A stretch of DNA of 64,000 nt. Origin: a virus. The notes under the pieces are model-generated. The model was not told the DNA's origin, made no database searches, and was given only the letters and a program-made list of their open reading frames with translations. This document shows, one piece after another, positions 10,564 to 64,000 of the stretch; the first letter of the stretch is position 1; each line of letters opens with the position of its first letter. The translations under genes were made by a program, and so were the position numbers. Location of the stretch: positions 62,001 through 126,000 of IMG/VR virus record IMGVR_UViG_3300027917_000020, one strand, 5' to 3'.

Positions 10564-11454
10564 ATGAGCGGTCAAGATAAAATTTTTGAGATGGTTACGG
10601 ATACCATCGTAAACAAACTGGAAGAGGGAACGATTCCGTGGCATAAGCCGTGGACGGGTACAATCGGTATGCCTCGCAATCTGGTTAGCAACAAAAACTA
10701 TCGGGGCATTAACATCCTTTTATTAGGGCTTCAGGGTTACGGCTCACCGTACTGGGTTTCTTTTAGGCAAGCGAGTAAACTCGGTGGCCATATTAGAAAG
10801 GGTGAGGCCGGTACGATTATCGTTTTCTGGAAATGGTTTGAAAAGGAAGAAGAAGTTGTAAACCCTGATACTGGGCTTACCGAAATTAAAAAGGTTAATA
10901 TCCCGTTTTTACGTTATTACAGGGTATGGAACGTTGAGCAATGCGAAGGGCTAAAACATAAACGGTTAGAACCGCAGACCGATGGGCGAGAAGTTGAAGT
11001 TAATACCACTGCGGAAACCATCTGGGACGGATGGGAGCATCCCGAAGTAAGAACAAACGGGGGACGGGCGTTTTACCATATAGGGGATGATTATATAGGT
11101 ATGCCCGAACAAGCCACCTTCGATACCGATGACGATTATTACTCAACCCTGTTCCACGAAGGCATCCATAGTACAGGGCATCCTGACCGATTAAATAGAC
11201 CGAGTATCGTAAGGGATAAGGATTATGGCGTAGACGATTATAGCAAGGAAGAACTGGTAGCCGAAATAGGGGCTTGCTACCTTGCTACGATGGTCGGAAT
11301 CGAGCGCACGATTGATAACTCGGTTGCTTATATTAATGGATGGCTTAACAAACTTAAAAGCGACAAGCGGATGGTGGTATATGCAGCTGCTCAAGCCGAA
11401 AAAGCGGCCGAATATATTTTAAACAACGGGAAGGGAGAAACCGATAATGAGTAA
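10564..11454 (+). CDS. ardC: ArdC-like antirestriction protein (DUF1738 plus zincin metalloprotease-like domain)
   Basis: 296 residues. The N-terminal domain (about 1-125) has the DUF1738 pattern I-P-W-H-K-P-W near residue 24 and N-x-x-Y-R-G-I-N near 45, a fold that binds single-stranded DNA in plasmid ArdC. The C-terminal domain has H-E-G-I-H at 198-202, an intact H-E-x-x-H metal site, and E-L-V-A-E-I-G-A further on. Plasmid and phage ArdC proteins shield incoming DNA from restriction. The promoter at 10500 and GAAGGGAG before the ATG fit early expression. It heads an operon of small proteins and overlaps the next gene by 8 nt. Confidence 0.88.
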   Translation: MSGQDKIFEMVTDTIVNKLEEGTIPWHKPWTGTIGMPRNLVSNKNYRGINILLLGLQGYGSPYWVSFRQASKLGGHIRKGEAGTIIVFWKWFEKEEEVVNPDTGLTEIKKVNIPFLRYYRVWNVEQCEGLKHKRLEPQTDGREVEVNTTAETIWDGWEHPEVRTNGGRAFYHIGDDYIGMPEQATFDTDDDYYSTLFHEGIHSTGHPDRLNRPSIVRDKDYGVDDYSKEELVAEIGACYLATMVGIERTIDNSVAYINGWLNKLKSDKRMVVYAAAQAEKAAEYILNNGKGETDNE

Positions 11455-29192: not shown

Positions 29193-30028
29193 TATCCATA
29201 AAACTCCTCTTTAGTCTCCATATATGCGGCCGATACTCCTAACGCTTGTGTTCGGCCAATTCTATTACCAAATTGAAACAACTCGTATGTATAAAAGTGG
29301 TCTTCCGGCGTAGCCCCTGCGCTTATAGCTACAAAACGTTGAGTCTCTCCAGAAGCTCCGCTTGTAAAAGTGCTTGAATTATCCCTTGCGTTAAAAGTTG
29401 TCTCGTTTGTATAATAATTAAGGTAAATTTTACCGATGGTTCCGACTGTTTCAACGGGTCTGAATAAGTAAGTCTGCACCTGAAACTCCAAAGTCCATTT
29501 TAAAACTCTGAAATTATCGTCCGTCCACTCTAATTCAGTCTCCGGTGTTGCCGATGTAAAGATAACTTTAACGTCAAAAGTAGCATCCAACTCCTCAATA
29601 TATAGGCGCATAAAGACATATGGCTGAAAATACGGCAGTATTTGCTCTAATATCTGGTCGATATCCGTCATATATAAGCCCCAAATACCCACTTGAAAAC
29701 TAATATCATAGGGTACGGGGTTTAAAAAACGGGTTAAGTCCCCACCATCAGTCTGTGAAACGCATATAGAACGGTATTTGTTGGTTGCCCGTTCCAGTGA
29801 ATACTCTATACTGGACATCGTTACGCTTATAATCGGCAACATTTCATCGTCTTTTCGCTCATTTAGCCAGTACCAAATCTTCTCTTTCATGCCAAATTTT
29901 AAAGGCACTTCGATATATTTATCAAATACACCTTTCTGCGTGTACCGTGCTATCTTTATATCGTTAAACATATCAAGGAATTGTGTAATAGTCTTCCTTA
30001 ATGCTTTATAATAATAATATTGTTTCAT
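29192..30028 (-). CDS. gp15: Tail sheath stabiliser / tail completion protein (T4 gp15-like)
   Basis: 278 residues (T4 gp15 has 272). Characteristic stretches are Y-Y-Y-Y-K-A-L-R-K near the start, L-P-I-I-S-V-T-M-S-S-I-E-Y at about 65-77 and V-P-Y-D-I-S-F-Q-V-G-I-W near 107. gp15 caps the tail and joins it to the neck. The start overlaps the stop of the tagged gene upstream and depends on coupling. Confidence 0.82.
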   Translation of the reverse strand: MKQYYYYKALRKTITQFLDMFNDIKIARYTQKGVFDKYIEVPLKFGMKEKIWYWLNERKDDEMLPIISVTMSSIEYSLERATNKYRSICVSQTDGGDLTRFLNPVPYDISFQVGIWGLYMTDIDQILEQILPYFQPYVFMRLYIEELDATFDVKVIFTSATPETELEWTDDNFRVLKWTLEFQVQTYLFRPVETVGTIGKIYLNYYTNETTFNARDNSSTFTSGASGETQRFVAISAGATPEDHFYTYELFQFGNRIGRTQALGVSAAYMETKEEFYG

Positions 30029-30417
30029 TTGCTTACATTCATAAGAACCCTAATTAAAGTTGCTATATCTCCCTGAAGTCCTTTCCATGTTTTATCAATG
30101 TAATTTAATTTCGATGTAAAATTTTTATATCTTTTTTCAACTATATTTTTTGGCGTAGATGCATCTGGATATGAATATGCATTCTCAATTGCATTCTCAA
30201 TAGAGTTTAAAAGATTGCCCATGCTCTTATTAACATCCCCTAAAAATCTATGAGTATGTTCTATTTGTTCTTCCAATACACCTCTGCTTGATTTTTTACA
30301 TTTAGGACAAAAGCCTCTATTTTTTTCCCATGCTTTTTTGGTTGAAACCTCATCGCATTCTAAACAGGCAATTTTTTCAACCTTTTTTTCATTTAGATAT
30401 TCTTTAAATTTGCTCAT
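30025..30417 (-). CDS. Tagged zinc-finger protein (capsid-targeting-like N-terminus)
   Basis: 130 residues starting M-S-K-F-K-E-Y-L-N-E-K. Behind the tag, C-L-E-C at about 18-21 and C-P-K-C at about 37-40 form a zinc ribbon. The rest is helical. A zinc ribbon behind a head-targeting tag suggests an injected nucleic-acid-binding protein (inference). It overlaps both neighbours by a few bases. Confidence 0.65.
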   Translation of the reverse strand: MSKFKEYLNEKKVEKIACLECDEVSTKKAWEKNRGFCPKCKKSSRGVLEEQIEHTHRFLGDVNKSMGNLLNSIENAIENAYSYPDASTPKNIVEKRYKNFTSKLNYIDKTWKGLQGDIATLIRVLMNVSK

Positions 30418-31089: not shown

Positions 31090-31386
31090 TTATCTCATTT
31101 GGCTTCTAATAGCAGAAATTGATGCTTCCATATCCCTTGCAGTCATTGTAAACTGCCGAGCTTGGTTAACTAATTCAGCATAACCATCCTCTAACCTATA
31201 CCAATCATCATTTTGAACTGTTCGAGTAAGGCTTTTTTGTACAAATCGAGAAAACAAAGCGGTATCTGATTCGTATTTTTTAACAGATTGACCATATTGT
31301 TTGGCCATATCTATAACCTTTTGTATATTTTTAAGCATTCCGTCTAAAGATTTTTCTTCTGTTAAATATTTTTCAAAAGTATTCAT
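31090..31386 (-). CDS. Small helical protein with capsid-targeting-like N-terminus
   Basis: 98 residues starting M-N-T-F-E-K-Y-L-T-E-E. GGAG precedes the ATG. The body is an all-helical bundle, resembling the tagged proteins at 28950 and 43880 in length and pattern. Lies among neck genes. Confidence 0.65.
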   Translation of the reverse strand: MNTFEKYLTEEKSLDGMLKNIQKVIDMAKQYGQSVKKYESDTALFSRFVQKSLTRTVQNDDWYRLEDGYAELVNQARQFTMTARDMEASISAIRSQMR

Positions 31387-31728: not shown

Positions 31729-32070
31729 TTATATATAATTTAACGCATCTTTAAGTGCCGTATGCAAACCCTTTACTCCCCATTTTTGTCCCATATCAAT
31801 ATACAAAAAATCCCGAGGGTTTTGTAACAAAGAACCTAAAGACCAGCCAGATGGTACAACACTATATTTATTAAAACCACCTTTATCAAAAGATTGTTCA
31901 ATATACAAAAGCCATTTGCCTTTTTCTTGGACAATTACTGCTCTATAAGGTTGTTTTAAATCTTGGCCATTGGAAGTACCAACGATTTGCGCTTTCTTTA
32001 AAACAATCCCGTTAGGCAAAGCCGGTGTTCCTTCAGTTAAATAATTATCTATCCTATCTAAAGTTTTCAT
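31729..32070 (-). CDS. Tagged hypothetical protein
   Basis: 113 residues. The start at 32070 is chosen over the frame's first ATG (32106) because AAGGAGAG lies before it and because it gives the tag M-K-T-L-D-R-I-D-N-Y-L-T-E-G. The folded part is beta-rich (W-L-L-Y-I-E-Q). The end overlaps nothing. Function unknown. Confidence 0.65.
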   Translation of the reverse strand: MKTLDRIDNYLTEGTPALPNGIVLKKAQIVGTSNGQDLKQPYRAVIVQEKGKWLLYIEQSFDKGGFNKYSVVPSGWSLGSLLQNPRDFLYIDMGQKWGVKGLHTALKDALNYI

Positions 32071-32081
32071 ACTTGCTCTCC

Positions 32082-32906
32082 TTAAAATCCTATCTCTATG
32101 CCCCAACCTTCAAAGGTTTCTTCATCCTTTAGGCGTTCTTCGAGAGCATCCTTCTCCTCCTTGCCCTCGGATATAAGGTCTCCACCATCTAAAGCGACAC
32201 CCTGATTACCAATCGAGGCAAAATTCTCAAATTTTCGTCTTATTAAGCCCAATTTTATTTTACATAACGCTACAGAGTATTCCAAAATCCAATCTAAACC
32301 GTAAAAATCTTCATCCGTATCACCCGGAGACCAAAAATCCTGAAGTCCCATAGTATTATAAGTACTGCCCTCAATCATCATTGCCCGTATTAATATAAAT
32401 CCCGGGGAATCCCAAGTGCCATCTGTTAACACTAAAGCATTACCACTTGGTGGCGCAGGGTGAATTTCTAATTCATTTGTAAAACGCCGATAATGATAAT
32501 TATATTTATCCGGTGTATATTTACGAACCGTTTCTAAAAAATCCCTTGCGATATGATAAGATACCAAAGTATAGCCAGCACCGCCGGTATCATAAAGCAT
32601 TTCATACATACCTTGATTATACAAATAGTTATCTACTGTAAATAAAGTATTAATAGCACCAGTTGAACCGGCCGCTTGATAGTCTATTACTTCGGTTACT
32701 CCTATCGGCAGGTCGTAAAAGTTTTGACCGGCTGATAACATTAAAGTAAACCATTGCTCCGTTACCGCTTGCCCGATTGCCCATTTAATAAATTTCTGGC
32801 GAGCTAAATCTATGGAGTCATATATCTGGCTATCATCTAACTCCACTTTAACCATCGGGAATCCAAGCTCCCGTTTTATGCGTTCTGCGAGTTCTTTTTT
32901 AGTCAT
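32082..32906 (-). CDS. gp13: Neck / head completion protein (T4 gp13-like)
   Basis: 274 residues (T4 gp13 has 309). The start L-A-E-R-I-K-R-E-L-G-F-P, the helix L-A-R-Q-K-F-I-K-W-A-I, and F-W-S-P-G-D-T-D near 195 fit the gp13 neck family. It lies upstream of the gp14-like gene, as in T4. Confidence 0.7.
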   Translation of the reverse strand: MTKKELAERIKRELGFPMVKVELDDSQIYDSIDLARQKFIKWAIGQAVTEQWFTLMLSAGQNFYDLPIGVTEVIDYQAAGSTGAINTLFTVDNYLYNQGMYEMLYDTGGAGYTLVSYHIARDFLETVRKYTPDKYNYHYRRFTNELEIHPAPPSGNALVLTDGTWDSPGFILIRAMMIEGSTYNTMGLQDFWSPGDTDEDFYGLDWILEYSVALCKIKLGLIRRKFENFASIGNQGVALDGGDLISEGKEEKDALEERLKDEETFEGWGIEIGF

Positions 32907-33682
32907 TATCTAATTTTCCTTAAATAATGCGTAATTATTTTATACGCTTCTTTATCAGGTATCATCTTTGATAAAAATTTAGTACGTTCTTTTTTAACTA
33001 ACCTTGAAATATTAGCAATTGAAATACCCGTTTGTTGTGCTATATGTAATACCAAATCAGCATCAGTGCTTGCCTCATCGTTATGTAAAAGCGAAGCAAT
33101 AAATCTTACTTTATCCCCTGTAAATTTTGCCTCACCTAATATAACTTTAGCCTGTCCGACCTGTTTATCAAGTTCTTTAAGTTTATCCATTAATTTTTTA
33201 TTCTTTTTAATCTCTTTGGATATAGGGTCGTCCCCGAGTTTAACCTTTTCATCAATTTTATAAAAACTAATTGCGCCTACTTTTTCTGCGGTAAATCCGA
33301 TTCCACGTGCTTTTAGATTTTTACGCAATTGCGCCATCATTTTTTTATCCCATCCAGATAAATTAATAGCCAATTTCTTTTTATCCCAATATGTATTAGC
33401 CGCTTCAGCTCCGGTTTCTGAGTATTGGCTTAATTTGCCTTTCGGTCCACCCCAGACATCGGCTATTGCGGCCTTTACATCTTTGGTAACTTGACTTTCA
33501 TTCATTTTTTTTGCTGCTTTTTGAAGTAACCGTACCGCATTCGGTCCTCTAATTGATTGTAAAGTATCCAACGCTTTTTGATATTCTTGTTTAGATTTAG
33601 CGTTTAATACTGCCATATATAAAGGGTCATTGCCAAATTCTTTACGCATTTGTTGTTCATTTAAGTATTTTTTAAATCTCAT
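32906..33682 (-). CDS. Tagged protein of unknown function, 258 residues
   Basis: Start at 33682 is preferred because GGGGA precedes it and it overlaps the previous stop by ATGA; the frame extends four codons further. The tag is M-R-F-K-K-Y-L-N-E. Behind it are helices and a short alpha/beta unit around W-D-K-K-K-L-A-I-N-L-S-G-W near residue 110. The C-terminal third ends with a helix-turn-helix-like stretch (Q-Q-T-G-I-S-I-A-N-I-S-R-L). One of the largest tagged proteins. Confidence 0.65.
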   Translation of the reverse strand: MRFKKYLNEQQMRKEFGNDPLYMAVLNAKSKQEYQKALDTLQSIRGPNAVRLLQKAAKKMNESQVTKDVKAAIADVWGGPKGKLSQYSETGAEAANTYWDKKKLAINLSGWDKKMMAQLRKNLKARGIGFTAEKVGAISFYKIDEKVKLGDDPISKEIKKNKKLMDKLKELDKQVGQAKVILGEAKFTGDKVRFIASLLHNDEASTDADLVLHIAQQTGISIANISRLVKKERTKFLSKMIPDKEAYKIITHYLRKIR

Positions 33683-33972
33683 TTCTTTCCCCATTCGGCA
33701 ATATAACTTTTATCCATGCCTTGATTTAATCTAATTCCTGCCCATACAAGCTCATGTTCCGGTCCTAAATGGTCGTTTACTCCTCCGGGTTTAATTGAGT
33801 CATTATACATTTTAACCCACTTGGCTAAGTTTTGCTCTGTGGGCTTTCCTGCTTGTTTACTTTCCCAAGCAGATGGAGTGCTTGACCATTTCGGGCTTTT
33901 TAATTTAACATCGACAACGTATTTAGGGGTCGTTGACCTACCCTCGTTTAGATATTTTTCAAAAGTCTTCAT
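33679..33972 (-). CDS. Tagged hypothetical protein
   Basis: 97 residues. The start at 33972 has TTGGAG upstream and gives the tag M-K-T-F-E-K-Y-L-N-E-G, the clearest match here to the T4 internal-protein leader. The body is basic with several Trp. It ends by overlapping the next tagged gene. Confidence 0.65.
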   Translation of the reverse strand: MKTFEKYLNEGRSTTPKYVVDVKLKSPKWSSTPSAWESKQAGKPTEQNLAKWVKMYNDSIKPGGVNDHLGPEHELVWAGIRLNQGMDKSYIAEWGKK

Positions 33973-34010
33973 ATATTGCTCCAATTTATAGTTATCATAT
34001 CTATTTATTT

Positions 34011-35564
34011 TTAATCGGTAAAACTGTTTGACTGCTCAAGCCACGACCAATCTTCTATAAAATCTTCAATATCCGCCAGAATTCCCCAAACATCCTCTTC
34101 CCGGCGGTCTATAAACTTATAATTTTCATCTAAAATATTCATTTCAAAGAGGTAACATCCCCACATAAGTGCCATAACAAGGTCATCATGGGTATCTTTA
34201 CCGAAAAACTTGCCATCCTCTTCGATAAATGAGCCGAGTTCCATAAGGGTTCGCTCATCATATATGCGTAAACTGCCGTCCTCTATAATCTTTTTCATAA
34301 GCAGGGCGGCTTTTGTTTTAGTTCCCTTCTCTCCGCCTGTCGACCTGATGCCAATATTCTTTATTTTAGAACCAGAGTTAATAAGGTTTTCGTACTCATA
34401 TTCCCACCATAAGCGGTTTACAACCGGAGCACCCTCGCCATTATTCTCTACCATAATGAATGCGCTATTATAATATATGGCTAAACGATATATAACATCC
34501 GAAAAATCATATACATCCGTCATATTATCCTGAAATACGGCAATTTGCGTCATTTTAATCGGCACTACACTTTCGATTTTAAGCACATGAATACAAGAAT
34601 GGTTTTCACCAGTACCTTTTGCCGGGTCAACGCCTAAAACATATACCGCATTATCTATTGGTTTCTCCCATACTCTAAGTCGATTCTGCAAGTCAAGCAT
34701 AACAGGTGCTTTATCTTGGGTTAAAATTACCGATAAAACCTCCGGTTTAATAAGAGTATTGGTCGAACCGATAAACTCAACCGCAAATTCTTGGGCAAAC
34801 TTCTGCGGTCCTAAGTTCATTAATTGTTCTTCCGCCCATTCTTCATCACGGCCGGGAACCTCTTCCCACGAAACTCTCGTATGAGCAAACGTATTACGCT
34901 TACTTTCAGCGTCCACATATAGCTTATGGAATATGTTAAATAGACCATTCGGGGTCGAGATAATAATAATCTTGGATTTTCGGGAGGCCGAAATGGTAGG
35001 ATAGTTGGCAGCCCAGAACTCTTCCGCTTGATTTTCCGGTACAAAGGCAAACTCATCGCATACCAGTAGGTTCATTGCTTCACCACGGAATGCGTCCGCA
35101 GAGGTTGCGCTAATAACGATACGGGTTCCGTTATCAAAAACGATAGCGGTCTCCTGATATTTAACAACTCCGGGTTTTAACCAATTCGGGAGCTGTTCAT
35201 ACATACGTTTAATTCGGCTTAGTATCATTTTAGCCGATGATTCTTTATTTGATACTATACCAACGGTCTTATCCTTATGAAACATAGCAAACCACAACAC
35301 GTATGCCCCGACAATGGTCGTTTTACCACTTTGACGGCTACATAGGGCTATATTAAATCTATGTTTCTGAAATTTTTTAAGGAGTGTCCACTGATAACCA
35401 TACGGCTCAAACTGGACTTCACCCATATCTGGATTAACGATTTTTACATACTTAATAAAATACGTTACATCCTTTGAGCACTTCTGGAGTTCGGAAATTT
35501 GCTCTACATCATATTCTAACTCATCGTGCGGTCTCTTTACCGCACCGTCATACTTAATTGGCAT
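34011..35564 (-). CDS. terL: Terminase large subunit (T4 gp17-like)
   Basis: 517 residues. Walker A is S-R-Q-S-G-K-T-T near 78, Walker B is L-L-V-C-D-E-F near 165, and the coupling motif is I-S-T-P-N-G. The C-terminal nuclease has its first Asp in G-V-D-P-A-K-G-T-G near 312 and later D-T-H-D-D-L-V. It pumps DNA into the prohead and cuts the concatemer. Its ribosome binding site is inside a strong hairpin (35570-35605) that overlaps a late promoter. The gene lies immediately downstream of spoVR. Confidence 0.93.
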   Translation of the reverse strand: MPIKYDGAVKRPHDELEYDVEQISELQKCSKDVTYFIKYVKIVNPDMGEVQFEPYGYQWTLLKKFQKHRFNIALCSRQSGKTTIVGAYVLWFAMFHKDKTVGIVSNKESSAKMILSRIKRMYEQLPNWLKPGVVKYQETAIVFDNGTRIVISATSADAFRGEAMNLLVCDEFAFVPENQAEEFWAANYPTISASRKSKIIIISTPNGLFNIFHKLYVDAESKRNTFAHTRVSWEEVPGRDEEWAEEQLMNLGPQKFAQEFAVEFIGSTNTLIKPEVLSVILTQDKAPVMLDLQNRLRVWEKPIDNAVYVLGVDPAKGTGENHSCIHVLKIESVVPIKMTQIAVFQDNMTDVYDFSDVIYRLAIYYNSAFIMVENNGEGAPVVNRLWWEYEYENLINSGSKIKNIGIRSTGGEKGTKTKAALLMKKIIEDGSLRIYDERTLMELGSFIEEDGKFFGKDTHDDLVMALMWGCYLFEMNILDENYKFIDRREEDVWGILADIEDFIEDWSWLEQSNSFTD

Positions 35565-35569
35565 GAAAA

Positions 35570-35605
35570 AAATACCTCCGATATTTACAACTATCAGAGG
35601 TATTT
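35570..35605 (-). promoter_or_regulatory. Hairpin sequestering the terL ribosome binding site
   Basis: On the minus strand a 14-bp stem (one T-G pair) forms between 35605-35592 and 35583-35570, with an 8-nt loop. The GGAGG site of terL (35579-35575) is in the right arm. It is followed by a T run, so it may also terminate. Transcripts started at the late promoter 35608-35601 would lack most of the left arm. Confidence 0.75.
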
Positions 35606-35608
35606 ATA
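35601..35608 (-). promoter_or_regulatory. T4-type late promoter for terL
   Basis: TATAAATA on the minus strand, 36 nt before the terL ATG. The predicted start (about 35595) lies inside the left arm of the hairpin. Confidence 0.75.
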
Positions 35609-35629: not shown

Positions 35630-37249
35630 TTATGGTGTAAAAATATTTGGATAAACTGCTTTAGCTATCAAAGGCGTTAAAGGATTGCCCGTATCAGCCG
35701 GAGCATCGGGAAGGTCTGCAGCCTCTTCAACTTCGTGTTTATTTTCTTTACGCTTAATTAATACAGGCTTTTTCTGAAATACAGTTTCAAGGATAATCTC
35801 CTTACCCCATAAATCGTAAATATGGTTTAACGTCTTTTTGGTATATTCCAGTTGAAGCTCCGCACCGGCATATTGATGTTTAAGGTATAATTTGCCTGCG
35901 CCTTCATAATCCACGTTTACTATTTCAACTTGAGGTATATGGCTATGGGCAAAACTGGCTACAATTAAATCCCGAATCTGCTTGTTATCGTGATTAGTTA
36001 CGATAAGGTCATATGACATCGGATTCTCCTTACCCACAAAAATATAAAGGTCAAGGTCATCAACCAATTCAACGGTTAAAAAGTTCTGCATAAAAAACCA
36101 ATCTTGGTATGATTTAAGCACTTTAAACATTTGATTGTGGCCGTCCATTGCTTTGGTATCCCAATTTTCTTTAACTTTTCGGTCTTGGCAATCTTCCCAA
36201 TCCCGTCCATGTCGGCCTTTATCCCATCGGGTAACTATATCTTCCCATATTTTGCTTCCGATGAGATAAGGATTCATAGCGGTTCGGTGCTTGGCCTTAA
36301 CGAGCGCATTGGCAAAATTATATTCCGCATGAGCTGTTCTATCCAGAGTACCTTCGGTAAACAGGTCACGCATTAATTTTTCATGCCAATATGTTGCGAA
36401 ACCTTCGTTCATATATTTGGTTTTAAGCTGTGGCCAAAAATACTGCCCTTCAGTCCGCAAAATCTCCAGTACATCTTTTTGCCAGTCTTCCAGTTTACGG
36501 GAATAATCTATAACATATCGGAGCAAATCACCGGCCGGTTCAATGGGCGTTTGGTTTTTAATCCTGCGCCATAGTTTTTGGTTATAAAGTTGAATATCCT
36601 GTTTAACTTTTTCTTCATCATCATGGGAAGTGGTTAAATCAGCATAATCGCTTTTATTGATTTTGTGGTCTTTGCGCTTCTGCATTTCAAATACCCGTGC
36701 CTTTTTCTCATCTTCGGTTTGGGTATCAAATGGTGAAGAATGAAATTGCAAAGAATGTCCGGCATCTATGGTCATTTCCAGTTCATCAATCCCATAGGCT
36801 TTTTCATATTCGTTTAGCCGTTTACGAGCATTATCCATAATCTGGATAATATCCTTCCGGGTATTCTGGAAGTATTTATTCATAGTAAAAAACGCCACGT
36901 GACCTATCACGTGCGCCATAACGAGGCATTGAACCCCGAAGGTATTGCTTTTCATAAGGTACGCACGTGAGGGGTCTGAATTAATTACAACCTCATACGG
37001 CAACCCATCGTACATATTTTCATTTATGGTACGAATTCGCTCATAATCCCGTCCGTATTTCCAGTTAGAAATGTTACCGGGAATGCGGTACGCCATAATC
37101 TCAAACATTTTCTGGTCTGGAATAACGTCCCATTCAATCTGGCAATAATTTAAACCGTAACCTTCGGCTAACTGGTTAAGGCGGTCTTCAATTTTAATCA
37201 GCCGTTGTAAATCATTGTTAGGAACTGGTTTATCCGGTTTATTATCCAT
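35630..37249 (-). CDS. spoVR: SpoVR family protein (YcgB-like)
   Basis: 539 residues (E. coli YcgB has 510). Recognisable stretches are L-P-Y-E-V-V-I-N-S-D-P near 85, M-A-H-V-I-G-H near 112, where cellular members have a conserved His-rich motif, and M-N-E-G-F-A-T-Y-W-H-E near 281. SpoVR is needed for the spore cortex in Bacillus. In proteobacteria it is linked with PrkA/YeaG and YeaH in stationary-phase stress responses. Here it lies 12 nt after yeaH with AAAGGAG before the ATG. The gene appears full length and undamaged. Confidence 0.9.
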   Translation of the reverse strand: MDNKPDKPVPNNDLQRLIKIEDRLNQLAEGYGLNYCQIEWDVIPDQKMFEIMAYRIPGNISNWKYGRDYERIRTINENMYDGLPYEVVINSDPSRAYLMKSNTFGVQCLVMAHVIGHVAFFTMNKYFQNTRKDIIQIMDNARKRLNEYEKAYGIDELEMTIDAGHSLQFHSSPFDTQTEDEKKARVFEMQKRKDHKINKSDYADLTTSHDDEEKVKQDIQLYNQKLWRRIKNQTPIEPAGDLLRYVIDYSRKLEDWQKDVLEILRTEGQYFWPQLKTKYMNEGFATYWHEKLMRDLFTEGTLDRTAHAEYNFANALVKAKHRTAMNPYLIGSKIWEDIVTRWDKGRHGRDWEDCQDRKVKENWDTKAMDGHNQMFKVLKSYQDWFFMQNFLTVELVDDLDLYIFVGKENPMSYDLIVTNHDNKQIRDLIVASFAHSHIPQVEIVNVDYEGAGKLYLKHQYAGAELQLEYTKKTLNHIYDLWGKEIILETVFQKKPVLIKRKENKHEVEEAADLPDAPADTGNPLTPLIAKAVYPNIFTP

Positions 37250-37261
37250 TGGTTCACTCCT

Positions 37262-38575
37262 TTACTTTTTTTGCTTTTCAAAAAGCATATGTTTTAAAGC
37301 AGGGAATACGTGGTCTCTGCTTTGAATAATGGATAGCAAAAATCGTTTTTCGTCATTCTTAAAAAAGGATGTTCCGCTATCTTTGGTCTCGCTAAAATTC
37401 CACGTCTTTTGAATCTCGTCTAAAAGAACGTGCCAGTTACCGTACATCATATCCTCTAACCTGATTTCGACATAAGATAACATATTAATATCTTTAGCAA
37501 GCATCTCTCCCATACGTCCTACTGTCAATTTGGGGTCCCAGTCTTCACCGTCTGAAATATAAACGCAATATACGTTCCATTCTTCAACGGGAAATTCGGT
37601 ATCTATAATATAGTTGCCCAATTCAAACGCACTGGCGCAAGAGGTTCCACCTGATTCGCCTTTATGGAAAAAGGTATCCTCATCAACCACTTGAGCGTCC
37701 GTTGTATGGGTAATAAATTTGATTTCCACGTTATCATAACACTTTTTAAGAAATTCAACAAGCCAAAATAACATTGAACGGGCGAGATATTTTTTATCTC
37801 GGGTCATTGAACCGGATACGTCCATCATACAAATAACAACCGCTTGTGATTGGTATTCAACATCGGGTTCAATTTGCTTATAACGCAGGTCATCATCGTT
37901 AATATAAACACCGTCCTGACGTTCCTTAACTTTATCAGCCGCAATTAATTCTAAGGCTTCGTTAATATCACCATGCGCTTGCCGTAATGCGTTATTAGCG
38001 GTATCTTCATCACAACCGGATTCTTCCATTATCTCGTGGACAAATGCGGTCATACGTTTTACGGCTTCGAGCAGGGTGCGTTTTTTATGAAGTCGTGGTC
38101 TAATACCTTTTTTGGATATGGTCTCAAATTTCCATCCTTTAGGCACGAGCTGTTTTGCCTTTGTTTTATCTTCAATCCACGGCAAACCTAAATCCTCAAA
38201 CATAATCTGGATAAGATAATCGATATCGACTTCAACATCCATATAATCAACACCGGGAATATTTCCGGGTTTATCGGGGTCACCGTCCCCGTCTCCGTCT
38301 TTGGGCTTACTATCAATTACATCGCCCGGTCCGGAATCCCCTTGACCGACTCCACCGACTCCGCCGTCGTTTTGTCCGTGTACAAAACGATAATCTTTCA
38401 AACCCCTAACTGGAATCCTTACTTTTTTACCACGCTTTTTAGTAATAATGGATTCTTCGGCAATAACATCACGGACGTTTTTGCGAATGGCATCATCTAT
38501 TTTTTCGTGGTGACGTTCGGCGTCTTTTTGTCCCTTTTCCGAAAAGTCCCACTCATCATGAACTACTATGCTCAT
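37262..38575 (-). CDS. yeaH: YeaH-like vWA protein (DUF444) with UBA-like insert
   Basis: 437 residues (E. coli YeaH has 427). The vWA metal-site motif D-V-S-G-S-M is at 252-257 and G-G-T-S follows near 311. A Gly/Asp-rich linker spans about 68-105, as in cellular YeaH. Where the cellular protein has a coiled coil, residues about 178-215 instead read G-C-D-E-D-T-A-N-N-A-L, then A-H-G-D-I-N-E-A-L-E-L-I, the pattern of a UBA/EF-Ts N-terminal three-helix domain. YeaH is the partner of the PrkA/YeaG AAA+ protein. GGAAGGAG precedes the ATG. Confidence 0.88.
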   Translation of the reverse strand: MSIVVHDEWDFSEKGQKDAERHHEKIDDAIRKNVRDVIAEESIITKKRGKKVRIPVRGLKDYRFVHGQNDGGVGGVGQGDSGPGDVIDSKPKDGDGDGDPDKPGNIPGVDYMDVEVDIDYLIQIMFEDLGLPWIEDKTKAKQLVPKGWKFETISKKGIRPRLHKKRTLLEAVKRMTAFVHEIMEESGCDEDTANNALRQAHGDINEALELIAADKVKERQDGVYINDDDLRYKQIEPDVEYQSQAVVICMMDVSGSMTRDKKYLARSMLFWLVEFLKKCYDNVEIKFITHTTDAQVVDEDTFFHKGESGGTSCASAFELGNYIIDTEFPVEEWNVYCVYISDGEDWDPKLTVGRMGEMLAKDINMLSYVEIRLEDMMYGNWHVLLDEIQKTWNFSETKDSGTSFFKNDEKRFLLSIIQSRDHVFPALKHMLFEKQKK

Positions 38576-38765
38576 CGGTATCTCCTTCCGTTTCTTTTTT
38601 ATTTGTTGCCGTAAACCCTAAAGTTCGAGTTTGTTTTTCTTCATTAAAAACTTTTACCTTTTCAATCCAAGCCGGTATCTTATCAAAATCTAAAAATTTA
38701 GCGGAATGAGTTGAAGCTTCGGCATCGCAATCTTTATTGTCTATCGTTATTTTAACTGTTATCAT
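38556..38765 (-). CDS. Small acidic protein between prkA and yeaH
   Basis: 69 residues. Start at 38765 is preferred because AGGAG is 6 nt upstream; an ATG two codons earlier is only 1 nt from it. The N-terminus reads M-I-T-V-K-I-T-I-D, a beta strand, and the C-terminal tail is Glu/Asp/Ser-rich. It overlaps yeaH by 20 nt. No homologue recognised; it may be an adaptor of the PrkA system by position. Confidence 0.55.
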   Translation of the reverse strand: MITVKITIDNKDCDAEASTHSAKFLDFDKIPAWIEKVKVFNEEKQTRTLGFTATNKKETEGDTDEHSSS

Positions 38766-38775
38766 TCTCATCTCC

Positions 38776-38838
38776 TAAAAAGAAGCCCCGCCTGCGCTTG
38801 AACATCACAGGCAGGGCTTTTATGAGACCAGTTGGACT
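38776..38838 (-). terminator. Intrinsic terminator after prkA
   Basis: On the minus strand the stem GCCCTGCCTG pairs with CAGGCGGGGC (10 bp, one T-G pair) and is followed by TTCTTTTT. A small hairpin ACCAGT-cca-ACTGGT lies just before it (about 38823-38838). The site separates prkA from the downstream small gene, yeaH and spoVR. Confidence 0.75.
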
Positions 38839-38847
38839 GGTAGGTAT

Positions 38848-40863
38848 TTAGGTCTTACGCAAAATCTCCCCGACAAAGGCCAGAAGCATATTAGCGCAAT
38901 TTTCGCAGTAGCCCTTTTCCAGAAGCGTCTTAAACGCTCGGCTCCGATGGCTTTTTGCCTTCGGGTTTGTATTGGTCGGGGATGCAATACTCAAGTTAAC
39001 GACATTCTTTAGGTCACCCATAAGTTTTTTCTCAATGGCTTCCCGTAATGGCGCATAACTATCAAACTTGAATTCTTCACCGGATTCCAGTGCCGTTGAT
39101 TTATGTACAAAGATACCATTTCTAAAGGTATCTTTTGAAGCGGCCGGTACGCCGATAAGTTCTTCAAGGCTTCGCATTAAGGTATCATCGGGGTCGCTAT
39201 ATTCGCCGGTAACGGAGTCCATAACCTTTTCCTTTTTACAGAAGGCTTCGCAGTGCTCCATATAGCGGTTAAATAGCTCTTGCGCCTGTTCGTCATAGGC
39301 GTATAAGAAGCCCCGATTAACTTCTTTTTTAGCCAGTTCTTTAAATTCCGAAACCACCGATTGTTTATCGGCCATAAGGGTATTAAGGTAATTTTTAATA
39401 TCCTCATCCTTAATACCAACGTGATGCTCGAAATTATGTTTTAAGGTACGGATAAGGTCTATCGGACTAACACAACCCTTCCAGACTCTCTTTTCCCCGT
39501 CCTTAAATTTGGCATCGGGATTTTCATTTCGACCGAGGGCGATGTTTAAGGCGTTAATAATAAAACGTGGACTGATACCTTCCATACCTTCGCCCAGTTT
39601 TTTGCCTTCTTCACGAAGGGCTTTAACGTCTATATCGGTCTTTTTAAATTCGTCCGATACTTCGCCATCATAAAGCTTCATCTTCTGGATGGGGCTTGTG
39701 ACTTTGGTCGATTTTTTAAGCCGTGATAATACGGCAAATTCGGCGGCAATCCGCAGGGTATGAGGAGCGATATGGATATCACGGAAGTCGGACTCCGCAA
39801 TCATCTTTTCGTAAATTTTAATCTCCTCGCTAACCTTGAGATTCCACGGAACCTTTACAACGTACATTCTGTCGTGTAAAGCTTCGTTTTTCTTTTCGGA
39901 ACGGAAGCTGTCATATTCCGTCTGGTTGGTATGGCTTAAAATGCTTGTATCAATATACATCTGCGGAAAACCGGGTGCTTTAATCAACTGCTCTTGGGCG
40001 GCTGAAATTAAAACGTAATGGAATTTAATATCCGCTTTTAAAATTTCGATGTATTCGATAATTCCACCATTGGCAACCTGAAGTTCGCCGTCAAACTGAT
40101 AACCACGTGGGTCGGTTTCACCGAATCGGGCAATTTTAGCCATGTTAACACGTCCGATAAGCTCGGTAACGTCTTGGCTTTTTGGGTCGGATGGCTGAAA
40201 CGTACCAATACAGGTTCGTTTCTGTTCCGATATATGAATCTGCTCTACCGGAATTTCTTCCCATTTTACAATGCCGTTTTCATCGGTGTATTTTTCTTCG
40301 ATTTCCTGTTGACAATGTGGGCATAAGAAACCTTCAATTTTAACACCTAACTGCTCTTCCCAAAAAGGTCTATCCTCTTCGGGAATAAGGTGTAAGGGTT
40401 CTTCGTGAATCGGGCATCCTTTAATGGCGTATTTTTCGGTTTCATCACGCTCAAGCCCTTTTTTAATAAGGCCTGCGATTGTTGATTTACCTGATGATAC
40501 AGGCCCCATCATAAGAAGGATACGCTTGCCCGTTTCGGTTCTTCGTGCGGCCGCTTTCATAAAGCGGAGCAAATCATGCAGGGCTTCAAGGGGACGGTCA
40601 CCGAAAATCTTGCCCTTGAAAAAATTATACTGGACAAGGTCTTCGTAACCTTGTGTTTTTAGCGCAGGGTCTACCGGACTCGTACCGTGTTTCATAATCA
40701 TATTATAAATACGTCCGGGCGCAAAGTTAGCAATTTCGGGATTTTCCTGTACCTTTTCCAGATACGCAATAACTGGCCCTTCCCAGTTAGCCCGACCTTT
40801 ACCTGTTTTTCTCTGTTCGAGAATAACCTTTCTAAAGTCGTCTGATTTCATCATTTTGTCCAT
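38848..40863 (-). CDS. prkA: PrkA/YeaG-like AAA+ serine protein kinase
   Basis: 671 residues (E. coli YeaG has 644). Start at 40863 has GGAG upstream; the frame extends five codons further. Walker A G-P-V-S-S-G-K-S is at 120-127. C-P-I-H-E-E-P-L-H-L-I-P near 155 and C-P-H-C near 189 match the PrkA core, with I-G-R-V-N near 243 and Y-I-E-I-L-K-A-D near 278. Cellular PrkA phosphorylates substrates on Ser and has been reported to act as an AAA+ protease. A host-type promoter lies upstream (40897-40925), and the gene is followed by a terminator, so it can be expressed early, on its own. Confidence 0.92.
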   Translation of the reverse strand: MDKMMKSDDFRKVILEQRKTGKGRANWEGPVIAYLEKVQENPEIANFAPGRIYNMIMKHGTSPVDPALKTQGYEDLVQYNFFKGKIFGDRPLEALHDLLRFMKAAARRTETGKRILLMMGPVSSGKSTIAGLIKKGLERDETEKYAIKGCPIHEEPLHLIPEEDRPFWEEQLGVKIEGFLCPHCQQEIEEKYTDENGIVKWEEIPVEQIHISEQKRTCIGTFQPSDPKSQDVTELIGRVNMAKIARFGETDPRGYQFDGELQVANGGIIEYIEILKADIKFHYVLISAAQEQLIKAPGFPQMYIDTSILSHTNQTEYDSFRSEKKNEALHDRMYVVKVPWNLKVSEEIKIYEKMIAESDFRDIHIAPHTLRIAAEFAVLSRLKKSTKVTSPIQKMKLYDGEVSDEFKKTDIDVKALREEGKKLGEGMEGISPRFIINALNIALGRNENPDAKFKDGEKRVWKGCVSPIDLIRTLKHNFEHHVGIKDEDIKNYLNTLMADKQSVVSEFKELAKKEVNRGFLYAYDEQAQELFNRYMEHCEAFCKKEKVMDSVTGEYSDPDDTLMRSLEELIGVPAASKDTFRNGIFVHKSTALESGEEFKFDSYAPLREAIEKKLMGDLKNVVNLSIASPTNTNPKAKSHRSRAFKTLLEKGYCENCANMLLAFVGEILRKT

Positions 40864-40896: not shown

Positions 40897-40925
40897 ATTA
40901 TACCATTACCATAATAAAATGTAAA
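40897..40925 (-). promoter_or_regulatory. Host-type promoter for prkA
   Basis: On the minus strand TTTACA (40925-40920), 17-nt spacer, TATAAT (40902-40897). It is the same class as the promoters of the early region. Confidence 0.78.
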
Positions 40926-41494: not shown

Positions 41495-41502
41495 TATTTA
41501 TA
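41495..41502 (-). promoter_or_regulatory. T4-type late promoter for terS
   Basis: TATAAATA on the minus strand, 45 nt before the ATG and directly beside the -10 box of an overlapping host-type promoter. Confidence 0.6.
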
Positions 41503-41531
41503 ATTATACCACAAAATTTATGGATTGTAAA
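41503..41531 (-). promoter_or_regulatory. Host-type promoter for terS
   Basis: On the minus strand TTTACA (41531-41526), 17-nt spacer, TATAAT (41508-41503). Confidence 0.7.
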
Positions 41532-41539
41532 TGAAGAGA

Positions 41540-41569
41540 AAAGCCCCGTCCCTTGCGGAACGAGGCTTT
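41540..41569 (-). terminator. Terminator after the major capsid gene
   Basis: A 13-bp stem (41569-41557 with 41552-41540) with a GCAA loop (GNRA type), followed on the minus strand by TCTC and an AT-rich stretch. The T run is weak in this direction, but the stem is perfect. Confidence 0.75.
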
Positions 41570-41600: not shown

Positions 41601-42824
41601 TTACGCAGGAAGGTTAGTTAGGCTTACTTTCTGGTAATAATTCTTGCTACCAAACAAGTGGTCGTGAATTCCGTAACGGCTCATCAATCCAAGTGCAGGA
41701 TTAAAAGAATCCTCAAAGGTCGCACGAGAAGCAAGTAGCTGAATATACGGCAAATAAATAACGCCAGTATCATACTCACTTGGGCCTTTGTAACCAACGA
41801 TAAATTGGTTGCTACTCTGGAAGGTATCACGGTATACGCTTAGTCTACCGTCAAGGGAACCGATTCGAGAAATTCCAACAGCAGAAGTATTAACATTTCC
41901 GGGTACCGGCGCAATTGTAAATGCCGCCATTGACTCAAATATCGCTACTGAGTACGGGTCACCTACAATCCAGTTACCTGAACCACGTCTTGTGTTAATA
42001 GCAATCTGTTGTGCTCTGCGGAGAATGTAGTGATATAGTTCTCTATATCTTTCCATTTCCCATCTACCACCGGGTACGCCTGTTCCTGAAGCGGCTTGGT
42101 AATTCCAAGTCAAGTCATAGTTAGCACCACCGGCTACGCAGACTGCGTCAATTTTCTCGATGAGTTCACGGTCAATTTCTGCCGTAATTTCATAAGCAAG
42201 AATATCCATCATTTCCTCTTCGAGGTTAAGACCGTGCATTGCTTTAAGGTCTTGGGCTACCTCAAGAGACCAACGGCTTCTTAACTTACGGGTTTTGGCT
42301 TCAATCTGTGCCTTCTCAACGGTCATATTAATTTCATTAATATGTGTTCCGGCACCGACACCTAAACCAACGTCATTACCAACACCTGCGCCTGCTTTTG
42401 AACCCAACGCTTCACCGGCTGATGTTACATAAGAACCTGAGTAAGAGCTATCGATTGTATTGTAACCAAGTTCAGTGGTATTTGCGGTATAATTACCGGC
42501 AGTCGTACCAGCTCTAAAACGAAGAGCAAATGCCAATCCAACAGGACCGGTCATCGGCTGAACACCTACTAAATCGTGAGCTACTAATTCAGGGAATGTA
42601 CGTCTAACCATCGGTACTGCGATTTTGTGAAAAATACCTGAAGTCGGATAACCGGCTTTCGTACCGAATGAGTCATTAGGATAGGCATAGGTTGTGGCTT
42701 CTTGCAACCAGTTATGCTGATTCTCAAGCATAATTGCGGTTGACTTGCGGACATTGGTATTACGGATTTCATTGCCCTCATTAAGAACCTCTTCCCACTT
42801 TTGCATTAGTTCTCTAATGTCCAT
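41601..42824 (-). CDS. gp23: Major capsid protein (T4 gp23-like)
   Basis: 407 residues (T4 gp23 has 521). It has the gp23 order: an N-terminal delta region, then N-W-L-Q-E-A-T-T at about 39-46, where L-x-E before Ala is the expected prohead protease cut. It continues with P-M-V-R-R-T-F-P-E-L near 71, then L-D-G-R-L-S-V-Y-R-D and V-G-Y-K-G-P-S-E-Y near 345. Its own start, M-D-I-R-E-L-M, resembles the tags of the small proteins. AAGGAGG precedes the ATG. Confidence 0.93.
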   Translation of the reverse strand: MDIRELMQKWEEVLNEGNEIRNTNVRKSTAIMLENQHNWLQEATTYAYPNDSFGTKAGYPTSGIFHKIAVPMVRRTFPELVAHDLVGVQPMTGPVGLAFALRFRAGTTAGNYTANTTELGYNTIDSSYSGSYVTSAGEALGSKAGAGVGNDVGLGVGAGTHINEINMTVEKAQIEAKTRKLRSRWSLEVAQDLKAMHGLNLEEEMMDILAYEITAEIDRELIEKIDAVCVAGGANYDLTWNYQAASGTGVPGGRWEMERYRELYHYILRRAQQIAINTRRGSGNWIVGDPYSVAIFESMAAFTIAPVPGNVNTSAVGISRIGSLDGRLSVYRDTFQSSNQFIVGYKGPSEYDTGVIYLPYIQLLASRATFEDSFNPALGLMSRYGIHDHLFGSKNYYQKVSLTNLPA

Positions 42825-43879: not shown

Positions 43880-44131
43880 TTATATATACTTTCCTAAAAT
43901 CATATTGTTAAAAAATTGTAAGGATTTTTTAGCATTAACAAGGTCTTTAGAAAGCATCCCTGTTTCGCCATTAAATGAATTCATTTCTCTTACTAAATTT
44001 GATATATGGTCACCAACACCATAATAAGCATCTCTTAATCTTGTAAAATCTCTACTATCCATATTTTTAAATGCTTCTCTTATATCTTTATCAGTCTCAG
44101 ACGCCTCGGTTAAATATTTTTCAAAGTTCAT
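43880..44131 (-). CDS. Small helical protein with capsid-targeting-like N-terminus
   Basis: 83 residues starting M-N-F-E-K-Y-L-T-E-A-S: tag plus ideal protease site (L-T-E before Ala). AGGAG precedes the ATG. The body is a helical bundle like those of 28950 and 31090. It lies between protease and scaffold genes, the place where T4 relatives keep head core proteins. Confidence 0.7.
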   Translation of the reverse strand: MNFEKYLTEASETDKDIREAFKNMDSRDFTRLRDAYYGVGDHISNLVREMNSFNGETGMLSKDLVNAKKSLQFFNNMILGKYI

Positions 44132-47708: not shown

Positions 47709-48226
47709 CTATCCTTGCGTTTCGGGGCCTTTCCGGTTTTACGAATCCCTTTAGCCCGTTTAAAAACTCCCCTTAGTTTATTAATAATGGATGCTTTAAC
47801 TTTCTTACTAAAATCTTTAGAATATGTGCTTACAACTGCTTTCTCAAAATCCTGAAATGGTATTTCAACGGGCTGTGATATATATGTTTTAGGACGGGTT
47901 AAATATCTGCGTACTGCGTGTTGTATATAAGGATATTTACGCTTTATTAATTCCCATCTAAATTTTGGATTATCTGTTTTGCTTAATATTTGAAGCCAAT
48001 CTTTAGCGAATTTTTTACGGTGAGCACGTGGAATATAGGTAAAATTTATAGCTTGAAATAGACTCCAATTATGTTTAGAGACATCATGTACACCTTGTAA
48101 ATGATACATTAATATAATAGTCGGTTTTGGGTCATTCTCCCATGCGGAATATTTGAACGAATACACGTGACCGCTTTTCCAGTTTACACCTTTAAATTTC
48201 TTTTTATAAACTCTGCGTACTGCCAT
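47705..48226 (-). CDS. Conserved-looking basic phage protein upstream of the portal
   Basis: 173 residues. The N-terminal part has G-H-V-Y-S-F-K-Y near 19-26, then F-T-Y-I-P-R-A-H-R-K-K-F near 62. This resembles proteins of unknown function in other T4-like phages, from memory. The C-terminal 40 residues are Lys/Arg-rich, suggesting DNA contact. No enzyme motif. Confidence 0.55.
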   Translation of the reverse strand: MAVRRVYKKKFKGVNWKSGHVYSFKYSAWENDPKPTIILMYHLQGVHDVSKHNWSLFQAINFTYIPRAHRKKFAKDWLQILSKTDNPKFRWELIKRKYPYIQHAVRRYLTRPKTYISQPVEIPFQDFEKAVVSTYSKDFSKKVKASIINKLRGVFKRAKGIRKTGKAPKRKDR

Positions 48227-48528
48227 TATCCATATCTTATATCAACTTTATTGACTCTGCCTATACTGTTATATTCAATTGTTGATTTTATTGTATCTTT
48301 AAGTTCCTTTTCACCTCGGACGGCAAACCCACCAAATCTTACTTCCAATTCAAGTTCGATTTTGTTTTTACCTTCACGACCCATAGCGTTTAATCGTATT
48401 CCGTCTTTATGTGCAAATGCCTGTCCGATTTTACGGTCAATATCAGATGGAAGTTTCATTACAGGGCTAAAAGTTACCACTGCGAATATTAATTCTGTCC
48501 CCTCTTTTATATAATCCCTAAACTTCAT
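48226..48528 (-). CDS. Tagged hypothetical protein
   Basis: 100 residues starting M-K-F-R-D-Y-I-K-E-G. The remainder is beta-rich with R-L-N-A-M-G-R near 45. It overlaps the stop of the gp4-like gene and relies on coupling. Confidence 0.6.
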   Translation of the reverse strand: MKFRDYIKEGTELIFAVVTFSPVMKLPSDIDRKIGQAFAHKDGIRLNAMGREGKNKIELELEVRFGGFAVRGEKELKDTIKSTIEYNSIGRVNKVDIRYG

Positions 48529-53934: not shown

Positions 53935-54249
53935 ATGAGTGAAAAATTTAGACAATATTTAACAGAATCAAAAGTGGCGAGAACCATTTTAGACCAGATA
54001 CGGGCTTTAGATAAGTATGCTCTACCGGCTTGGGGAGCAAAGGATTTTGTAAGTTTTGATAAGGGTATCCAATTTGACGTCCGAGGTTCTAAACATCGTG
54101 GTCGGGTTATCGTGGGTTTAGATAAAGGCGACCTTTATAGTATTGAGATAGGCAAAATAAACAGAGCTAACGATTGGGTATCGATTAAGAAAAATAAAGG
54201 TATACAAGCGGCAAATTTAGTTACCGCAATAGACGAATTGGTAGGATAA
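53935..54249 (+). CDS. Tagged hypothetical protein
   Basis: 104 residues starting M-S-E-K-F-R-Q-Y-L-T-E-S, with L-T-E before Ser as cut site. AAAGGA precedes the ATG. The mature part is a small alpha/beta domain (R-G-R-V-I-V-G-L-D-K-G). Function unknown. Confidence 0.65.
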   Translation: MSEKFRQYLTESKVARTILDQIRALDKYALPAWGAKDFVSFDKGIQFDVRGSKHRGRVIVGLDKGDLYSIEIGKINRANDWVSIKKNKGIQAANLVTAIDELVG

Positions 54250-62368: not shown

Positions 62369-62656
62369 ATGAAATATGAAAATTTTTTAAACGAAATGGG
62401 AGCATCATTACAAAAATTAGCTTTTATCACAGTTAAGGAAATATTGGCTATGGGTTTAAAAAAAGCTGATATTTCAATCTTACAAAAAGATAAAAAACTC
62501 CGGGTAAAAATGCCTGATAGACCGGCCGGTCCCACTCAAACATCTCAAAAAGGATTGGAGTTTGTCGTGGATGTTCTCGGAGAAAATAAAATTTTAATAA
62601 ATAATAAAGAGAAGGATATAAACGAGTTTATAAACGAGGTACTCGGACCAAAATAA
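62369..62656 (+). CDS. Tagged hypothetical protein
   Basis: 95 residues starting M-K-Y-E-N-F-L-N-E-M. Weak ribosome binding site and only 1 nt from the previous stop, so coupled. The rest is a helix then a beta hairpin ending in L-G-P-K. Confidence 0.6.
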   Translation: MKYENFLNEMGASLQKLAFITVKEILAMGLKKADISILQKDKKLRVKMPDRPAGPTQTSQKGLEFVVDVLGENKILINNKEKDINEFINEVLGPK

Positions 62657-62992: not shown

Positions 62993-63304
62993 ATGAGATT
63001 TAAAGAATATTTGATAAATGAAAAACTAAAAAAACCATCTAACCTTAGTGGGGCAAGTGACGAAGAGTTAATGTCTTATGCCGGGGATTTTGAAAACACT
63101 AAATGGAATCCAGATAATAAAGCCGAAGTAATGAGAATAGCTAAAGCTATAAACAAAGAAATTAAAAAAAGAGGGTTCCGTGGTAATGAAATTAAACCGA
63201 TATTTGAAGCCAAAGGAGAAACTTGCCCAGTATGTGGTAAAAAGAACGCAAGCGGAAAGCATATTGATAAATGCTTAAAAAAATCAGGGGAGTATGACTG
63301 GTAA
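62993..63304 (+). CDS. Tagged zinc-finger protein
   Basis: 103 residues starting M-R-F-K-E-Y-L-I-N-E-K. The C-terminus has C-P-V-C-G near 77 and H-x-x-x-C near 89-93, a C2HC-type finger. AAGGGG precedes the ATG. The stop overlaps the next start. Confidence 0.65.
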   Translation: MRFKEYLINEKLKKPSNLSGASDEELMSYAGDFENTKWNPDNKAEVMRIAKAINKEIKKRGFRGNEIKPIFEAKGETCPVCGKKNASGKHIDKCLKKSGEYDW

Positions 63305-63543
63305 TGAAATTTAGAGATTATTTAAACGAGGGAAAGAATTCCATAATTGCTAAAGGCAAAGGAAAAGGCCAGCCAAGATGGGAATATTATGATAGCAGAG
63401 GAGTAAAACATTTTGGATGGGTAGAAAAAACATCAGACAGAGGGGGAACTGATGTTACCTATTTTTTCAGAGATGAAAATACTGACGAGCTTTCCGTTGT
63501 CTCAGGAAGTATTTTGAAAAAAGCAAATAGGATATGGAAATAA
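63304..63543 (+). CDS. Tagged hypothetical protein
   Basis: 79 residues starting M-K-F-R-D-Y-L-N-E-G-K. It is followed by a small beta barrel-like domain with G-K-G-K-G-Q-P-R-W-E-Y-Y. It resembles an SH3-like fold. Coupled to the previous gene. Confidence 0.65.
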   Translation: MKFRDYLNEGKNSIIAKGKGKGQPRWEYYDSRGVKHFGWVEKTSDRGGTDVTYFFRDENTDELSVVSGSILKKANRIWK

Positions 63544-63788: not shown

Positions 63789-64000
63789 ATGGATACATAT
63801 AAAAAATATCTAAACGAAAGCAAATTGATTAGAAGCCCAAAAGATGATTTTGAAAAACGGCTTTCAGCTTTAGATTCAGAAGTAGAAGATTTTGTTATGT
63901 TTCTATTTAATCAAACAAAAAAACCAAAGAAAACAGAAGCAGATGCTTATAAAGTCCTTTATCAAACATATGCCCAAAAGATGAAGGATTTTCAAAGAGT
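63789..64000 (+). CDS. Tagged hypothetical protein, cut by the right edge
   Basis: At least 70 residues from ATG 63789 with GGTGAG upstream. It starts M-D-T-Y-K-K-Y-L-N-E-S-K: tag plus L-N-E before Ser. The rest is helical. The gene runs off the window. Confidence 0.6.
   Translation, partial: MDTYKKYLNESKLIRSPKDDFEKRLSALDSEVEDFVMFLFNQTKKPKKTEADAYKVLYQTYAQKMKDFQR

Follow-up and report, generated by a model that had tools for sequence, protein, structure and literature searches.

A PrkA-YhbH-SpoVR operon kept between the terminase genes of a clade of T4-like phages, and its possible action on the state of the host

Virus record IMGVR_UViG_3300027917_000020 carries, between its two terminase genes, the three genes prkA, yhbH (also yeaH, DUF444) and spoVR, which are widespread in bacteria and tied there to starvation survival and sporulation, and for which there is no agreed biochemical function. 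This raises the question of what such a set is doing in a phage. The stretch analysed (the window) is 64,000 nucleotides long and corresponds to positions 62001-126000 of the 161.6 kb record. The phage is T4-like and belongs to a large group of uncultured viruses that infect bacteria, and a run of its genes is transcribed from the minus strand in the order major capsid protein (MCP, Gp23 type), TerS, PrkA, YhbH (DUF444), SpoVR and TerL. The three genes, referred to here as the trio, are prkA (38848-40863; a PrkA/YeaG-family AAA+ ATPase of about 671 residues), yhbH (37262-38575; a von Willebrand A, or vWA, protein) and spoVR (35630-37249; 539 residues), flanked by terL (34011-35564; PF03237 9e-20, PF17289 1e-8) and by terS (40943 to about 41425; phrog_445 1.1e-7), beyond which lies the MCP gene (41601-42824; PF07068 2e-92). 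An earlier sequence-only reading had placed three complete genes between terL and terS, and the Pfam matches to PrkA, DUF444/YhbH and SpoVR, together with those of the flanking genes, bear this out. The longest open reading frame (ORF) of prkA extends to 40878, but a ribosome-binding site, AAAGGAGA, falls between the two candidate starts and inside the longer ORF, so the start at 40863 is probably the correct one; the start of terS was chosen on the basis of a GAGGAGG site.

In the clade to which this phage belongs the trio is part of the core and is almost always present as a block. A search of IMG/VR with the PrkA query yielded 75 loci, about 43 of which, within the reach of their contigs, are arranged MCP-terS-prkA-yhbH-spoVR-terL. 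Because these loci had been selected by PrkA, relatives were fetched again using terL and MCP profiles. The trio-independent terL scan gave 74 distinct terL genes, 52 of them with more than 2 kb of upstream sequence, and spoVR is present there in 49 of the 52; where more than 8 kb is available, the exact order terS-prkA-yhbH-spoVR is found at 24 of 27 loci. The exceptions are contigs that end early, an unrelated terL (L094) and a distant relative (L092), and the MCP-selected loci agree with the terL scan save for five (L206, L214, L230, L231 and L234). Retention is near-universal over terL identities of about 55-100%, and the terS-trio-terL block is kept where the MCP and neck genes have been inverted (L036/L096 and L128/L185). 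The median ratios of non-synonymous to synonymous substitution rates in pairs of relatives are 0.081 for PrkA, 0.093 for YhbH and 0.113 for SpoVR, with 0.081 for TerL and 0.096 for MCP, several of the pairs being duplicate contigs and about seven of them independent. By this estimate the trio is under purifying selection like the capsid and terminase genes.

The trio is missing from five more distant terL relatives (L092, L249, L265, L283 and L292). In the terL tree L283, which has a transglycosylase in the terS-terL slot, is nested within the trio carriers and likely represents one loss of the trio, and the phages with PhoH form a separate branch within the unresolved base of the tree. In these the slot is filled by a PIN-PhoH ATPase (L249:6668-8908, L265:8459-9649 and L292:8688-9875), so that one and the same position houses unrelated stress-linked ATPases. 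The PIN-PhoH of L249 also contains intein/LAGLIDADG-type signals. A search for PhoH elsewhere in the genome of the window phage found none.

The sequence-only reading had proposed trees as a way of asking whether the three genes share a cellular donor, and the trees are in agreement that they do. In those of PrkA, SpoVR and YhbH alike, the window clade (group V1) is a single group with 99-100% support in the Shimodaira-Hasegawa-like approximate likelihood-ratio test (SH-aLRT), and in every tree its sisters are the same small set of cellular trios, found in metagenome-assembled genomes (MAGs) of Myxococcota/'Deltaproteobacteria' and Spirochaetota, pointing to joint acquisition. PrkA identity between the clade and these sister copies is 54-59%, and the copies are sporadic, being present in few of the approximately 300 and 250 genomes sampled from the Myxococcota/'Deltaproteobacteria' and Spirochaetota phyla. 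The simplest reading is that the whole operon was captured once from cells, with transfer in the reverse direction possible. Other phage groups are placed elsewhere: V2 near Bdellovibrionota/Clostridia, V3 with the Proteobacterial YeaG proteins and the Thermus phages apart, the exact placement of the latter being unsure because of long branches. Approximately unbiased (AU) tests reject a single phage origin of V1 and V2 (p 6e-6) and of V1, V2 and V3 (p 7e-8), and the trees indicate that the trio was captured independently by at least two further phage groups. One contig from a genome bin titled Methylococcaceae TMED69 (L332) has a trio that falls within group V2, and is therefore probably viral. 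That one clade retains all three as core genes, and that other phages acquired the set independently at least twice more, argues strongly for the genes working as one unit and for this unit being useful in infection.

Matches of all three proteins to their families are full-length and well above the Pfam cut-offs but below the NCBIfam equivalog cut-offs, and we therefore regard them as divergent family members. PrkA matches PF08298 (4.9e-108) and PF06798 (2e-62) over its full length, and is related to PDB 9xip (E 3e-114). Alignment with phage and bacterial relatives shows that Walker A (GPVSSGKST), the Walker-B-like glutamates, the sensor Asn and the Arg finger are intact; the sequence-only reading had called Walker A and the vWA metal site intact, and both are. 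Its description of PrkA as a kinase/protease fares less well. The AAA+ motifs stand, but the position of YeaG K426, the changing of which disables YeaG (PMC10954441), is Asn in the window PrkA, in its phage clade, in the cellular sisters and in Bacillus PrkA, and purified B. anthracis PrkA, assigned to the clade III AAA+ proteins, has negligible kinase and protease activity (PMC13001217). For these two reasons PrkA is read here as an AAA+ remodeller and not as a proven kinase, and kinase activity of the window protein is doubtful.

YhbH (PF04285 6.3e-95, TIGR02877 9.6e-100) has an intact metal-ion-dependent adhesion site (MIDAS; D252, S254, S256, T311 and D342), of which the DxSxS...T...D pattern is invariant in 25 sequences, and the top structural neighbours of its model (mean predicted local distance difference test score, pLDDT, of 74) are the Rea1/MDN1 MIDAS and other vWA domains. 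A UBA-like insert at residues ~175-211 (PF19026, E 6e-4) is common to the phage clade and to the cellular sister L294, and differs in this respect from Bacillus and Clostridium YhbH, which are without it. SpoVR (PF04293 2.2e-97, PF24755 2.9e-13) has an HxxxH (H113, H117) and an NEGxAxxxH motif (281-289) that are invariant across 29 phage and cell sequences, and that resemble the HExxH...NEGFA of gluzincin-type zinc peptidases, minus the catalytic Glu. The two Pfam matches are to the N-terminal and C-terminal domains of SpoVR. The protein is probably metal-binding; a structure search with its confident model (pLDDT 85) gave no significant match among solved structures.

The predicted expression signals set the trio apart from its neighbours. 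Sigma70-type promoters (TTTACA-17-TATAAT with a TG before the -10; each 11/12 matches) are predicted upstream of prkA (40897-40925) and of terS (41503-41531) on the minus strand. The whole record has about 34 such strict sites, and within the virion cluster only these two are present. The motif was noticed first in the window and afterwards tested on the relatives, in which strict sites are found before terS in 47% (0.7% expected by chance), before prkA in 29% and before yhbH in 8%, and in 0% before spoVR and ten further genes of the virion set, against 0.1-0.8% expected by chance. The promoter lies before terS in relatives in which terS overlaps prkA, whereas prkA mostly has a promoter to itself in those with a gap between the two genes. 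The distribution of a T4-type late motif, TATAAATA, is different. In the window it precedes portal, scaffold, terS (41495-41502, minus strand), terL (35601-35608, minus strand), sheath and hub, and among the relatives it is seen before portal, scaffold, terS, terL, neckA and sheath in 33-85% (chance 4-8%; 51% against 7.7% for terS, 55% against 5% for terL), and before prkA, yhbH and spoVR in 0%. No strict sigma70-type site precedes the trio in group V2 phages, and of five trio-less relatives one has a site before terS, too few to tell the ancestral state.

The unit is also bounded by predicted intrinsic terminators on the minus strand. One, with a 14-pair stem followed by a T run, lies after spoVR (35570-35605, its foot overlapped by the terL late motif) and is present at the spoVR-terL junction in 46 of 60 relatives (77%); the other, of 13 pairs, lies between MCP and terS (41540-41569) and is present in 43 of 45 (96%), compared with 0-1% at the remaining junctions other than prkA-yhbH. 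A further hairpin and T run after prkA (38780-38825), seen at the prkA-yhbH junction of 23 of 60 relatives, may be an internal terminator or attenuator, and a short ORF (about 60 codons; 38577-38765, minus strand) lies between it and yhbH. From the sigma70-type, late-motif and terminator patterns, terS and the trio look like a separate transcription unit, opened by terS and readable by host-type RNA polymerase, with terL opening its own, presumably late, unit 3' of the trio. We infer that the trio is expressed early or in the middle of infection, and its membership of the late virion programme is disfavoured by the promoter and terminator patterns. The genes lie within the virion cluster as originally described, but appear not to be transcribed as part of it.

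We think there is an even chance that the trio remodels the state of the host during infection rather than acting in the particle. In a single event, the ancestor of this large T4-like clade would have taken up a whole bacterial prkA-yhbH-spoVR operon, which was then kept beside terS. Its products would be an AAA+ ATPase ring (PrkA), a vWA/MIDAS partner (YhbH) and an associated third subunit (SpoVR), and by analogy with AAA+/vWA pairs such as MoxR-vWA and Rea1 we infer that they form one machine. Transcribed from sigma70-type promoters by a host-type RNA polymerase, and separated from the late virion genes by a terminator on either side, the unit would remodel host proteins to give a low-activity, stress-protected cell, much as YeaG and YeaH affect starved E. 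coli, and slow-growing or starving hosts might thereby be kept alive and productive through the infection. In starved E. coli YeaG and YeaH together act as a 'metabolic brake' (PMC10954441), and surviving nitrogen starvation requires YeaG (PMC4664914). This brake role and the host-type promoters are the reasons for favouring action on the host over packaging or counter-defence, and a host-state role also fits the lack of late promoters before the trio. That the trio is host-derived by phylogeny and intact is as would be seen for an auxiliary or host-takeover phage operon.

Several observations weigh against action on the host. In 34 of 58 relatives terS and prkA are less than 20 nt apart or overlap, and co-transcription with terS equally suggests a link to packaging. 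The late motif before terS could allow late read-through into the trio. The promoter frequencies carry no correction for shared ancestry, the timing of the trio is deduced from sequence signals, and what PrkA does biochemically is a matter of dispute even for the Bacillus protein (PMC13001217). A search for the host with the MCP profile, in about 400 genomes from each of three phyla, gave nothing close and two remote matches only, and no tRNA genes were found.

The packaging link could be a direct one: as an AAA+/vWA chaperone, the trio would cooperate with TerS (or the portal or terminase) in loading, remodelling or timing the packaging motor. This is in keeping with a placement between terS and terL that hardly varies across a large clade and that survives inversion of neighbouring genes, with the sharing of one terminator-bounded, often translationally close unit with terS, with the independently acquired trio of the Thermus phage Lalka27b, which has a minor head protein on one side and terL on the other, and with the presence of another P-loop ATPase, PIN-PhoH, in the slot of three trio-less relatives. 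We nevertheless consider it rather unlikely, as the trio genes of relatives have no late motif whereas terL, portal, scaffold and sheath do, relatives without the trio package their DNA, and in other groups, so far as phiLo, MN1, L056 and L068 show, packaging genes are not its neighbours. A variant that combines the two, in which terS-prkA-yhbH-spoVR would be a single module whose AAA+/MIDAS machine, derived from a bacterial dormancy operon, acts on or gates the TerS ring and so matches the timing of packaging to the host's physiological state, seems to us improbable.

Similarly small is the probability that we attach to counter-defence, in which the machine would disarm toxin-antitoxin or other abortive defences of the host. 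YeaG represses mqsR/mqsA and dinJ/yafQ (PMC4664914), host-type promoters are consistent with early action, and the window encodes a relative of an anti-restriction protein (10564-11454; phrog_7245 5e-72). However, nothing was found that ties the trio directly to phage defence, the effect in E. coli is indirect and the YeaG kinase lysine is absent from the window PrkA. That the trio is a mere passenger carried through linkage to the terminase genes, with no specific infection role, is very unlikely, for although single stress or sporulation genes are known as phage cargo, spoVR being the commonest sporulation-type gene of a marine oxygen-minimum virome (PMC8940887), the selection on the trio equals that on structural genes, its retention is near-universal and other phage groups captured all three genes independently.

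A separate observation concerns head proteins. About eleven small proteins in the window, where shuffling expects 0.15, carry at the N-terminus a tag similar to M-x-x-F-[KER]-x-Y-L-[NT]-E, and are encoded on the minus strand at 30025-30417, 31090-31386, 31729-32106, 32906-33694, 33679-33984, 43880-44131 and 48226-48528 and on the plus strand at 53935-54249, 62369-62656, 63304-63543 and 63789-64000. The tag resembles the capsid-targeting sequences of the T4 internal head proteins, which are cut by the prohead protease, and in view of this likeness the particle may hold a large number of internal proteins. None of PrkA, YhbH and SpoVR has the tag.

If the trio does act on the state of the host, these viruses possess a ready-made switch for dormancy, which is relevant to the way in which phages in nature deal with starving bacteria, and the phage versions, those of cultured Thermus phages included, offer a testable route to the function of the machine. 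The trio is not unique to the window clade. The sequence-only reading knew of no characterised phage with all three genes, but they are present in the cultured Thermus phages YS40_Isch, phiLo, MN1 and Lalka27b, and in many environmental phage contigs. PrkA relatives were found in 16 of 50,697 phage records, these being for the most part Thermus phages together with four huge metagenomic phages. The open papers covered by the search gave no account of a phage clade in which the complete trio is a near-fixed operon, nor of its terS-terL position or separate promoters.

Among known systems, the Thermus phages phiYS40, TMA, YS40_Isch, phiLo, MN1 and Lalka have PrkA and DUF444 as here, with SpoVR annotated or detected in most, but their gene order is yhbH-spoVR-prkA, their PrkA identity is ~31-35%, they form a separate branch in the trees and they have no terS-trio-terL block, although in Lalka27b the trio does adjoin terL. 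In the cultured Ralstonia jumbo phage RsoM2USA, SpoVR is ORF28, placed under replication, and PrkA is ORF30, a Proteobacterial YeaG with its best match in Alcanivorax; no YeaH is named in the passages concerned (PMC8504454). The YeaG/YeaH of Enterobacter phage LAU1 was set aside, as it lies at the very tip of its record, next to a prophage, and is probably a flanking host segment. The PIN-PhoH of L249, L265 and L292 sits where the trio does and is a P-loop ATPase linked to stress, but the protein is unrelated and the trio is absent from that slot. As in MoxR-vWA, RavA-ViaA and Rea1/Midasin, the AAA+ gene adjoins a MIDAS gene; PrkA is a family of its own, and a putative partner of YhbH. There is likeness, too, to the bacterial prkA/yeaG-yhbH/yeaH-spoVR/ycgB operon, which has the same families, the order prkA-yhbH-spoVR in many bacteria and intact AAA+ and MIDAS residues, and from which the window trio differs in being phage-borne, in occupying a terminase slot behind terS with phage-type unit boundaries, and in having Asn at the K426 position, as in Bacillus.

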